NCBI GenBank assembly: GCA_026014565.1
Contig: JAOZIB010000015.1
Span: forward strand, 1 to 54,600
Reading direction: 5' to 3'
Source: Candidatus Bathyarchaeum sp.
GTDB lineage: Archaea; Thermoproteota; Bathyarchaeia; Bathyarchaeales; Bathyarchaeaceae
DNA: 54,600 nt
Of this stretch, positions 25,892-38,522 are shown piece after piece. Made by a program: the position numbers and the translations under genes. The notes beneath the pieces are model-generated. The model saw nothing but the letters and a program-made list of their open reading frames with translations. It was not told where the DNA came from and ran no database searches. Each line of letters starts with the position of its first letter. The stretch's first letter is position 1.

Positions 25892-25990
25892 CGGGCCCGA
25901 GGGGAATTGAACCCCTGACCTACGGATTAAGAGTTTCGGCTTAGTCCCAAAGGACCAGTCCGCCGCTCTGCCTTGCTGAGCTACGGGCCC
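25892..25990 (-). tRNA. tRNA-Lys (CUU) with a 25-base intron in the anticodon loop
   Basis: Folding the minus strand gives acceptor GGGCCCG/CGGGCCC, D-arm GCTC/GAGC, anticodon stem GCGGA/TCCGT and T-arm AGGGG/CCCCT with TTCAATT. The discriminator is G and CCA is not encoded. The anticodon loop is 32 bases; removing 25932-25956 (or a register one or two bases away, since CT repeats at both ends) leaves CTCTTAA with anticodon CTT. The intron is at a non-canonical position, before base 34 rather than 37/38. Within it GGTCC can pair with GGACT. Acceptor and discriminator agree with archaeal lysine tRNA. Confidence 0.93.
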
Positions 25991-35482: not shown

Positions 35483-35962
35483 TTATTCAGTTCTGCGTTT
35501 TTGCAAAAGCTGTTTAGCGAGCTCTTTGGCGTGAGAATGATAAATCAAATCAATGATTTGGTTCCAGTCAAACTTTGGATGTGACATATAATGAGGATAC
35601 TCTTCGGGAGAGAACATGACAAGTTTGTCTGAGTCGTATAAAATCTTGAAAGCCAAAGGAGGAGAACTTGGGTGGTCGTGATGACTGCGGACAAATTCAC
35701 AAACTTGGTCAACAAAATCTTGGGGGTAACCTAGGTTAGTTAATATTGTTGAGGCGATTTCTGGTCCGTTCTTGTATTGTTTTTCTATGGTGCTTCCGCC
35801 GATGTCATGCATGATTATGGAACAATAAACTAGTTCTTCGATGTCTTTGGGAATGTCAAAGTTCTTTTGTGCAATTTCAAAAACTCGTCTCGTATGGGGC
35901 ATACCAAAATCGTTTTTCTTAAGGTAAGGTTCTGCTAACTCGAAAACTTTTTCGTAGTTCAT
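35483..35962 (-). CDS. HD-domain phosphohydrolase
   Basis: A 159-residue HD-superfamily protein: His23 (MPHTRR), the HD pair in IIMHDIGG and a later SHHDHPSS supply the metal ligands. Short HD proteins of this type hydrolyse nucleotides or small phosphoesters. The N-terminal half is the typical helical bundle; no extra domain. The ATG start has no strong Shine-Dalgarno. Confidence 0.8.
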   Translation of the reverse strand: MNYEKVFELAEPYLKKNDFGMPHTRRVFEIAQKNFDIPKDIEELVYCSIIMHDIGGSTIEKQYKNGPEIASTILTNLGYPQDFVDQVCEFVRSHHDHPSSPPLAFKILYDSDKLVMFSPEEYPHYMSHPKFDWNQIIDLIYHSHAKELAKQLLQKRRTE

Positions 35963-36037: not shown

Positions 36038-36568
36038 TTATTCGTTGGTGTAAACTTTTACTCCATAGGACTTCAATGATTGAACTACGCTGGAACTACT
36101 CAAGGCTTTGAGTAAGGCATAACCCAATACAGACATAGCAATGATGGTGCTGAGGGTAACACTGACAATCATTCCAACGAGTGGGGAAAGTTGTAATCCA
36201 AAAATGTCGGCCTCAAATCCAAAAAAGAGCGAAAGATAACCGCCAACGATTACTCCGATGGGTAAGGCACCTGCAGTAGATGCAAGTAACTGGCGTTTTC
36301 TGAGCATGAACACTATTATTGCGGCAATGAGGTTTGCGAGGGTTCCAAAGATTACGTCTTGGGGACCTAGCCAAAAGTATGCGTTTCCGATTAAACAACC
36401 CATAGTTACTCCAGTGATTGCAGGCCAACCAAACAAGGCGGCTAAAGGAATTAAACAGTCTGCAACTCGTAATTGTATGGGTCCAAAAGAAATCGGAGCC
36501 AAAACTATGAGCAAAACGGCATACAAACTGGTGAAGACAATTGTTAAAGTAATTTCTGTGGTTTTCAT
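36038..36568 (-). CDS. queT: QueT-family transporter (queuosine precursor ECF-type S component)
   Basis: A 176-residue protein with about five membrane segments and the QueT features FTSLYAVLLIVLAPISFGPIQLRVADCLIPLAALFG and an LGPQD turn. QueT proteins import preQ0/preQ1-type 7-deazaguanines. It is the last gene of a queT-queC-queT unit (18 bases after queC). It is a paralogue of the 37234-37716 protein, so one member may take a different 7-deazaguanine or the two may form a complex. Confidence 0.82.
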   Translation of the reverse strand: MKTTEITLTIVFTSLYAVLLIVLAPISFGPIQLRVADCLIPLAALFGWPAITGVTMGCLIGNAYFWLGPQDVIFGTLANLIAAIIVFMLRKRQLLASTAGALPIGVIVGGYLSLFFGFEADIFGLQLSPLVGMIVSVTLSTIIAMSVLGYALLKALSSSSVVQSLKSYGVKVYTNE

Positions 36569-36586: not shown

Positions 36587-37237
36587 CTATTGTTCATATT
36601 CTGTTGGGTCGGGAATCTGGGCTTCTTCAAAGGCCCGTTTACGGTTCATGCACGACTCGCAGGTTCCACAGTGTTTTTCCCTGCCAAAATAGCACGACCA
36701 CGTTAGCTCAAAAGGCACTCCAAGTTCTGAGCCTTTCTTGATTATTTCCGATTTTGGACCGCCACCAAAGGGAGCATCTACAGTTATGTCTTCGTCGGTT
36801 CCCATTCTTGCTGTTTCTTCAAAAGATTTGTAAAACTGAGGTCTGCAATCAGGATAAAAGGGTTCATCTGACCCGTGGGCGCCATAGAAAATTTTTGTTG
36901 CACCAATTGCAGATGCATAAGCAACTGCAACGGACAAAAATATGGCATTTCTGAAGGGAACAATTATGGGTTGGCTGAAGTCTCCGGTCATGATTATGTT
37001 TTCGTCACAAACCGAAGTTACTCCCATGTAAATTTTTCGCAACGAAGATAAGTCAATTACTTTCAAAGGAATTCCCAGTTTTTCTGCAACAAGTTTGGCG
37101 TGTTCTACTTCTTTTGAAGCAATTTGTCCATACTTGCAAGTTATTGCAGAAACATCATATCCTTGGTTTTTTGCCCAATAAACTGTGGTTACAGAATCGG
37201 GTCCGCCACTTAACACTACTACACATTTTTCGTTCAT
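36587..37237 (-). CDS. queC: 7-cyano-7-deazaguanine (preQ0) synthase
   Basis: Converts 7-carboxy-7-deazaguanine to preQ0, the precursor of archaeosine at tRNA G15. About 216 residues: PP-loop SGGPDSVTT near the start, FRNAIFLSVA, and the zinc site of CYFGREKHCGTCESCMNRKRAF. The usual loop reads SGG-[LM]-DS; Pro replaces that residue here. The ATG at 37237 overlaps the upstream TGA (ATGA), giving coupled translation; an ATG 12 bases upstream is the alternative. It lies between two QueT genes. Confidence 0.93.
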   Translation of the reverse strand: MNEKCVVVLSGGPDSVTTVYWAKNQGYDVSAITCKYGQIASKEVEHAKLVAEKLGIPLKVIDLSSLRKIYMGVTSVCDENIIMTGDFSQPIIVPFRNAIFLSVAVAYASAIGATKIFYGAHGSDEPFYPDCRPQFYKSFEETARMGTDEDITVDAPFGGGPKSEIIKKGSELGVPFELTWSCYFGREKHCGTCESCMNRKRAFEEAQIPDPTEYEQ

Positions 37238-37716
37238 GAATTCCACCATTTAAATCGTTTATCAATTAACATGAACACTACAGCTCCGATTATGCAGGCT
37301 GCCAAATCGGTAACTAGTAACATGGGCAATGCGACTAAAAAGGGTGAAATTGCAAGCTGTTCAAACATGAAACTAAGGCTAAATGCTATGATAACTGCGG
37401 TTACTGTTCCTGAAACAAAATAGTTTTGTTTAAATCGTTTAGCGACTAAAAAACCTGCAAGACCGGCTATTACGCTCATTAATGGCATAAACAGCAGGTC
37501 CCAAGGACCTGCAAAGGGGCTAAAGAAGTTGCCAACCAATACGCCAAGCCCATAACCAAGGGATAGAATCCATTTTTTTGCTATTGCTGGTCGTAGTGCG
37601 CCTGCTATTCGGAATTGAGCTACTCCAAAAGCAATTGGTGTAAAAGCTACAACTAACGCCGCGTATAAGGCGGCGAATATTATGGTTAATGCTAAATCTT
37701 TCGCGTTCACATTCAA
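37234..37716 (-). CDS. queT: QueT-family transporter (first gene of the que operon)
   Basis: About 160 residues with five membrane segments; the start of the fold (LALTIIFAALYAALVVAFTPIAFGVAQFRIAGALRP) aligns with the 36038-36568 paralogue. The start is taken as the TTG at 37716 because it aligns with the paralogue's N-terminus and has GGGAGG nine bases upstream. Reading from a TTG at 37782 would add 22 residues but would pass through the structured leader. Coupled to queC by ATGA. Confidence 0.8.
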   Translation of the reverse strand: MNVNAKDLALTIIFAALYAALVVAFTPIAFGVAQFRIAGALRPAIAKKWILSLGYGLGVLVGNFFSPFAGPWDLLFMPLMSVIAGLAGFLVAKRFKQNYFVSGTVTAVIIAFSLSFMFEQLAISPFLVALPMLLVTDLAACIIGAVVFMLIDKRFKWWNS

Positions 37717-37723
37717 TGATATT

Positions 37724-37812
37724 TTCCTCCCTACTCCGGGATTTTTAATGCGGAACGGGTGGGAGGAACCACCTACCCGCAAGAGAATTGGTCTGCAAGA
37801 ATAGTTTAAAAA
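37724..37812 (-). promoter_or_regulatory. Leader of the queT-queC-queT operon with anti-Shine-Dalgarno hairpin (riboswitch candidate)
   Basis: The Shine-Dalgarno GGGAGGAA (minus strand, 37731 to 37724) is perfectly complementary over eight bases to TTCCTCCC (37768 to 37761) about 30 bases upstream in the same leader. That same stretch lies in the loop and arm of a hairpin made by GCGG/CCGC (37750-37753 with 37777-37780) and GGTGG/CCACC (37758-37762 with 37769-37773). An alternative helix CGGGT/ACCCG (37756-37760 with 37775-37779) excludes the second stem. A TATA-like GTTTTTAAACT (about 37802-37812) predicts a start near 37780, so the hairpin sits at the 5' end. This would let a ligand switch the ribosome site. 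No match to preQ1-I, II or III consensus was recognised. Confidence 0.5.
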
Positions 37813-37904: not shown

Positions 37905-38522
37905 TTGAAGTGCCCTAAACTAGTTTCCTTGTTCCTGATTTGCATCATAGTTTTCTCATTAATCGTTTTAGTTTACTCAAAAAATAACACAGAACAAGAC
38001 TGGTCCATGTTTAGTTACCAATCCATCTTGCAAGAAATCCCACGAAATGGTTTAGCAGTTTTAAATCAAACAACACGTGTGCAAATCTACAATTTTATAA
38101 CCGACAACCCTGGAGTAAACTTCCGTGGAATCTGCAGTGCCCTTGCCTTACCCATAGGAGTAGTACAGTATCATCTCACAGTTTTAGACAAAGGGAACTT
38201 GATTTCTGATTGTAGGGATGGTCGAAACAAACGGTTCTTCAAATCCAGAAAGTTTTCCGATACAGAAATGAAAATTATTTCTGCCCTGAGGCATGAAACC
38301 GTAGAAAAAATATTGACCATACTCCATGACGAAGAGTCGGAAGCCCATGGAAAATTGGCTCAACGTTTGAATATTTCCTCTCAAGCTCTAACATGGCACA
38401 TGAAACAGTTACAACAAGATGGGCTTGTTACGGGTTTAGCAGAGGGACTGACAATTAAATATTCTCTAGCAGAGGAACAAGTTGACACAATCAAAGAATG
38501 CATTGAATTAGTCTCAAATTAA
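37905..38522 (+). CDS. Membrane-anchored winged-helix regulator
   Basis: A 205-residue protein starting at TTG with GGAGG seven bases upstream. Residues ~5-25 are a membrane helix, followed by a short loop and two winged-helix domains: IYNFITDNPGVNFRGICSALALPIGVVQYHLTVL and KILTILHDEESEAHGKLAQRLNISSQALTWHMKQL. It would hold two DNA-binding domains at the inner face of the membrane. It is divergent from the que operon, and their promoters are adjacent. Confidence 0.75.
   Translation: MKCPKLVSLFLICIIVFSLIVLVYSKNNTEQDWSMFSYQSILQEIPRNGLAVLNQTTRVQIYNFITDNPGVNFRGICSALALPIGVVQYHLTVLDKGNLISDCRDGRNKRFFKSRKFSDTEMKIISALRHETVEKILTILHDEESEAHGKLAQRLNISSQALTWHMKQLQQDGLVTGLAEGLTIKYSLAEEQVDTIKECIELVSN

Follow-up and report, generated by a model that had tools for sequence, protein, structure and literature searches.

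The queT leader and its operon

The window, i.e. the whole stretch of 54,600 nucleotides analysed, contains on its minus strand an operon whose gene order queT-queC-queT, already proposed by the sequence-only reading, was confirmed by Pfam. The leader of the first gene (reverse of 37724–37780), with a length of 60–65 nt, carries an RNA element. The features of the locus, given in the direction of transcription, are:

37805..37812, minus strand: TATA box TTTTTAAA (from the sequence)
37722..37784, minus strand: whole RNA element, the 5′ leader of the queT-queC-queT mRNA (covariance-model match, positions 1–63 of 63)
37776..37781, minus strand: 5′ strand of P1, UGCGGG (covarying helix)
37761..37768, minus strand: 5′ strand of P2, the anti-Shine-Dalgarno UUCCUCCC, within the P1 loop
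37754..37758, minus strand: conserved core CCGUU, a candidate part of the binding pocket (in alignment A1, CCG and CCGC do not vary)
37749..37754, minus strand: 3′ strand of P1, UCCGCA (outer pair U-A in the window, G-C in most relatives)
37736..37744, minus strand: conserved linker core AAAUCCCGG (AAAnCCCGG), likewise a candidate part of the binding pocket (in A1, AAA and CCC do not vary)
37724..37731, minus strand: 3′ strand of P2, GGGAGGAA, including the Shine-Dalgarno
37234..37716, minus strand: queT1, 7-deazaguanine ECF transporter S component, TTG start (PF06177, E=1.6e-15)
36587..37249, minus strand: queC, 7-cyano-7-deazaguanine (preQ0) synthase, overlapping queT1 (PF06508, E=4.4e-62; TIGR00364 above cut-off)
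36038..36568, minus strand: queT2, a second QueT, 18 nt downstream of queC (PF06177, E=3.7e-27)

Between 37782 and the TTG start (37716), the leader reads UUGCGGGUAGGUGGUUCCUCCCACCCGUUCCGCAUUAAAAAUCCCGGAGUAGGGAGGAAAAUAUCA-UUG in the 5′ to 3′ direction. Judged from the position of the TATA box, transcription of the operon presumably starts at about 37782, on the 5′ boundary of P1. GGAGG constitutes the Shine-Dalgarno of queT1, 9 nt upstream of the start, and the 8-base perfect complement to it that had been noticed earlier is indeed present, UUCCUCCC (37768–37761) facing GGGAGGAA (37731–37724). The duplex of these two strands is strong in the window (−13.2 kcal/mol); single-sequence folding of the leader is unremarkable (z = −0.57). 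No motif was detected upstream of queT2, as the window holds a single match to the covariance model R2 described below.

On the same strand, 75 nt past queT2, lies a gene for an HD-domain protein (35483–35962, minus), which is possibly part of the operon, and a gene for a winged-helix regulator (37905–38522, plus) is oriented divergently from it. Elsewhere in the window, a tRNA whose anticodon loop is interrupted by an intron (25892–25990, minus; Rfam 57.7 bits), which was missed by ARAGORN, was assigned by inspection as tRNA-Lys(CUU).

A conserved H-type pseudoknot

The architecture conserved among the relatives is an H-type pseudoknot consisting of P1 (N-GCGGG:UCCGC-N) and of P2, in which a strand of the P1 loop pairs with the Shine-Dalgarno. 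The sequence-only reading had described a hairpin at the 5′ end of the leader with two alternative stems; both of these, CGGGU:ACCCG and GCGGG:UCCGC, are found in the window, but only the latter is conserved, and the hairpin architecture has to be replaced by the pseudoknot with its core of CCG-UU and AAnCCCGG. As a conserved fold the CGGGU:ACCCG hairpin was rejected, since it is disrupted in 29 of the 92 distinct members; in the window it may compete with P1.

P1 is documented by its outer pair, which is retained in 89 of the 92 distinct members and realised by six standard pair types, and by compensatory changes in its core, from G-C to A-U at locus L250 and from G-C to C-G at L240, L252 and L264. 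In P2, double-sided changes occur at all seven counted pairs (88 members), and divergent members have rewritten the helix, as in UUUCCGAC:GUCGGAAA (L191), GCUCCGU:ACGGAGC (L193), ACAUCUC:GAGAUGU (L091), CCUCGCA:UGCGAGG (L218) and CCUCUCA:UGAGAGG (L217). Conservation of the anti-Shine-Dalgarno, the lack of which had been set beforehand as a refutation of the idea, is thereby established at the level of pairing, which is kept through compensatory changes. Over the whole fold, 12 of 15 pairs show double-sided changes in alignment A5 (trimmed segments, 88 members), 90.3% of the cells pair, and the covariation score amounts to 0.480 compared to 0.165 for shuffled alignments and no more than 0.118 when partners are slid. 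Since the P2 register in A5 was chosen per sequence, a permutation test in which each loop was given its best helix with any tail represents the cleaner control for P2; here, the sum for the own partners was 1550.5 versus 1378 ± 23 for swapped ones, with a maximum of 1467.5 in 10,000 permutations. The member counts overstate the number of independent events because many members are related.

The open reading frame of queT1 extends throughout the leader up to a TTG at 37782, and conservation might in principle derive from coding sequence. This explanation is practically negligible, given that the Shine-Dalgarno and the start lie downstream of the element, that the changes are compensatory for base pairs and that the length differences among relatives, with linkers of 11, 12, 13, 14, 16 or 17 nt and loops of 12 to 18 nt, are not divisible by three. 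A TATA-like box whose centre lies ca. 30 nt upstream of GCGG is present in 55 of 91 members, and the element therefore occupies the leader from its first nucleotides.

The unpaired CCG, UU, AAA and CCC are nearly invariant across the members; the last U of the CCGUU core also forms a G·U pair in P1. Such near-invariance of unpaired nucleotides points to a tertiary core or a ligand pocket rather than to a simple occluding helix. A passive or temperature-sensitive structure which merely occludes the Shine-Dalgarno without any ligand would agree with the finding that P2 alone covers it and with the stability of the duplex in the window, but it would leave both the invariant CCGUU and AAnCCCGG and the strict association with one pathway unexplained, and we regard it as highly improbable.

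Distribution and associated genes

QueT was detected by protein search in 41 of 61 genomes, comprising the window's own and those of relatives, and the motif is located directly upstream in 27 of 30 QueT loci read from relatives. Its shared form is GGCGGGUGAGUGG-nn-CCUCCCACCCGUUCCGCC-AUAUAAACCCCGG-nGUA-GGGAGG. Two covariance models were used, R1 and, as a second one built without the window's genus, R2. R1 also matches the element of the window in its own genome, and on the 54.6 kb of the window R2 produced 37784–37722 as sole match (66.7 bits, E=5.3e-18). This score from a model blind to the genus and the 27 occurrences upstream of queT decide the matter in favour of the earlier view that a leader element beyond chance is present.

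Among 398 Thermoproteota genomes, R1 matches 80, mostly with one copy per genome. Of 227 genomes from the phylum to which the Asgard bin LC30 belongs, 16 were matched; 13 of the matches are recognisable members, nine of which are divergent yet sit upstream of QueT, and the other three (G477, G540 and G601) contain no recognisable motif and were discarded. Likewise discarded as chance-level were the R1 matches in 4 of 199 Bacillota genomes (E 0.002 to 0.008). A pattern scan of genome contigs, performed blind to the downstream gene, yielded at least 120 loci, and the archaea among the scan matches listed include Bathyarchaeota, Methanomethylicota, Nitrososphaerota-labelled bins, an Odinarchaeia bin, Njordarchaeum and another Asgard bin. 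The bacterial pattern matches are attributed to chance, as they are mostly GC-rich and show neither a matching Shine-Dalgarno nor a que gene, and a viral match (L232) is a GC-rich chance hit as well. One genome bin (G433) contains three copies of the motif (L206, L213 and L214), two upstream of QueE and one upstream of QueT.

Some QueT genes of relatives lack the motif (L016, L027 and L032). QueT genes lacking it were noted at L032/L265 (G060) and L267 (G040); the leader of L032 keeps UUUCCG, a CUUCUC strand and AAAAAACCGGGAGAAA upstream of the ATG and is perhaps a degenerate relative of the motif. The QueT gene at L016 (1383–1500, plus; G055) is preceded by a different leader, in which GGGCGGGAUGAGUUCCGCCCUAACCCC is followed, close to the start, by a CAGCCUC...GAGGCUG helix; this leader gave a weak match to R2 (E=0.046) and is possibly a rearranged variant.

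The first downstream proteins (n=124) comprise 117 QueT, 5 QueE, 1 QueC and 1 without family (L189), in line with the earlier proposal that the archaeal element controls 7-deazaguanine genes. The five QueE assignments refer to radical-SAM proteins with QueE as best NCBIfam match. Operon mates are QueC, FolE, QueT and Gat-QueC; the QueE copies are followed by QueC (L045), FolE (L213) or a Gat-QueC fusion (L067). Further loci obtained from model matches all precede QueT, with the exception of L240 and L252, where an orphan membrane protein is found. It belongs to a family of ca. 235 amino acids encoded downstream of the motif at L240 (288–983, plus), L252 (316–1017, plus) and L189 (2367–3083, plus), which has no Pfam or NCBIfam match. 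The L240 and L189 proteins are 40% identical, and the L189 gene is followed by QueC. The family is a candidate for a new 7-deazaguanine transporter; a structure model was too poor for a fold search (pLDDT 54.7).

None of the 61 genomes yielded QueF, the enzyme that converts preQ0 to preQ1, while eight control genomes gave matches; TGT is present in 55 of the 61. Because of the absence of QueF, preQ0 appears a likelier ligand than preQ1.

Relation to known riboswitches and proposed mechanism

At gathering as well as permissive cut-offs, Rfam gave only chance matches at the leader; the scans covered the whole window, the leader alone and 20 member loci. The models of preQ1-I (RF00522) and preQ1-II (RF01054) each matched 0 of 61 genomes, and their controls, Bacillus subtilis and Lactococcus lactis, respectively, were positive. 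The element thus corresponds to no known preQ1 class, as had been suspected.

With preQ1-I (types I–III) it shares the H-type pseudoknot, the pairing of an anti-Shine-Dalgarno in the P1 loop with the Shine-Dalgarno, and the genes of the queuosine pathway; type III buries the Shine-Dalgarno fully (PMC11625349). In preQ1-I, the ligand pairs with a C that directly precedes the 3′ strand of P1, in the context UC or AC (PMC11625349). This specificity C is absent from the archaeal element, in which a U precedes CCGC in 92 of 92 members; with the G·U pair included in P1, the position before the strand holds mostly U and sometimes A or C. The archaeal element further differs from preQ1-I by its size of ca. 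60 nt, an extended CCC-containing linker, its occurrence so far in archaea only and the lack of an Rfam match. PreQ1-II likewise occurs upstream of queT and controls translation by burying the Shine-Dalgarno in a pseudoknot, but has an HLout topology with P1–P4 and is restricted to Bacillota (PMC11625349), whereas only P1 and P2 are supported for the archaeal element. With preQ1-III the pathway and the pairing between anti-Shine-Dalgarno and Shine-Dalgarno are shared; preQ1-III is, however, an HLout aptamer with a separate domain (PMC11625349), in contrast to the archaeal element without Rfam match. Comparable as a natural, presumably translational switch of an archaeon is the fluoride riboswitch found in Thermococcus kodakarensis, which differs in ligand and fold; according to a paper of 2021, no other natural riboswitch had been determined experimentally in archaea (PMC8241225). 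By word search, archaea go unmentioned in a 2024 review covering the three preQ1 classes (PMC11625349), and no archaeal preQ1/preQ0 riboswitch was found in the open-licence papers to which our literature search was confined. A putative switch of ca. 60 letters by which many uncultured archaea would govern both the making and the import of a modified tRNA base has apparently not been described before.

That the element is a structured cis-regulatory RNA of 7-deazaguanine genes we consider close to certain. A conserved structure in the 5′ leader, genes of one pathway and an overlap with expression signals, the features by which riboswitches are recognised, are all found here, and it is likely that the element represents a new archaeal riboswitch class, which would hide the Shine-Dalgarno at high levels of a 7-deazaguanine base, probably preQ0. 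In the proposed scenario, the cis-acting RNA of ca. 60 nt, presumably beginning at the transcription start, folds as an H-type pseudoknot, in which the pyrimidine strand of the P1 loop pairs with the Shine-Dalgarno to form P2. The invariant unpaired CCG-UU and AAnCCCGG would build a pocket for a 7-deazaguanine in its free form, most likely preQ0. With ample supply of this base, its binding would stabilise P2, hide the Shine-Dalgarno and reduce translation of queT, queC and queE; under scarcity, P2 would open and the uptake and synthesis genes would be translated. Formation of the pseudoknot should block initiation because the P2 strand holds the Shine-Dalgarno at its short distance from the start, and end-product repression is to be expected because the genes both import and make the 7-deazaguanine precursor. 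Both this OFF direction and the choice of preQ0, our best guess and a rather probable one, follow from pathway logic.

The same genes would also be expected if the pseudoknot were the operator of an RNA-binding protein, e.g. the archaeal TGT or an unknown repressor, sensing 7-deazaguanines or their tRNA, and the conserved unpaired nucleotides could be where the protein binds. Leaders bound by proteins have precedents in archaea. We nevertheless judge a protein operator improbable, since the same compact tertiary-like core recurs across two archaeal phyla, an unsystematic look at the loci read revealed no common regulator gene, and bacterial preQ1-I RNAs act over que genes as H-type pseudoknots that bury the Shine-Dalgarno (PMC11625349).

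A less remote alternative, albeit still an unlikely one, is a riboswitch of the same design for another ligand, such as preQ1 scavenged from bacteria, archaeosine base, guanine or a pterin intermediate; it overlaps with the preferred explanation, in which the ligand is narrowed down no further than to a 7-deazaguanine. The dedication of queC and queE to preQ0 and the predominance of QueT among the first genes argue against it, as does the absence of QueF, due to which production of preQ1 is not expected, although preQ1 could be scavenged as an alternative free base. On the other side, the copy at L213 precedes queE and then folE, which bears on pterins too, and QueT is a predicted preQ1 carrier in bacteria (PMC5372724).

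Returning to the preQ0 switch, we lean towards regarding the element as a fourth structural class of 7-deazaguanine riboswitches, which would be preQ0-selective, confined to archaea (Bathyarchaeia, Methanomethylicia, other Thermoproteota and Asgard lineages) and archaeal-born, and would also flag the unnamed transporter family of L240, L252 and L189. If this is true, a riboswitch class apparently native to archaea exists, which is present in Asgard lineages and represents a pseudoknot solution to the same task that is independent of the bacterial preQ1 switches. The motif makes the regulation of archaeosine precursors directly testable and offers a sequence tag by which new 7-deazaguanine genes can be found.
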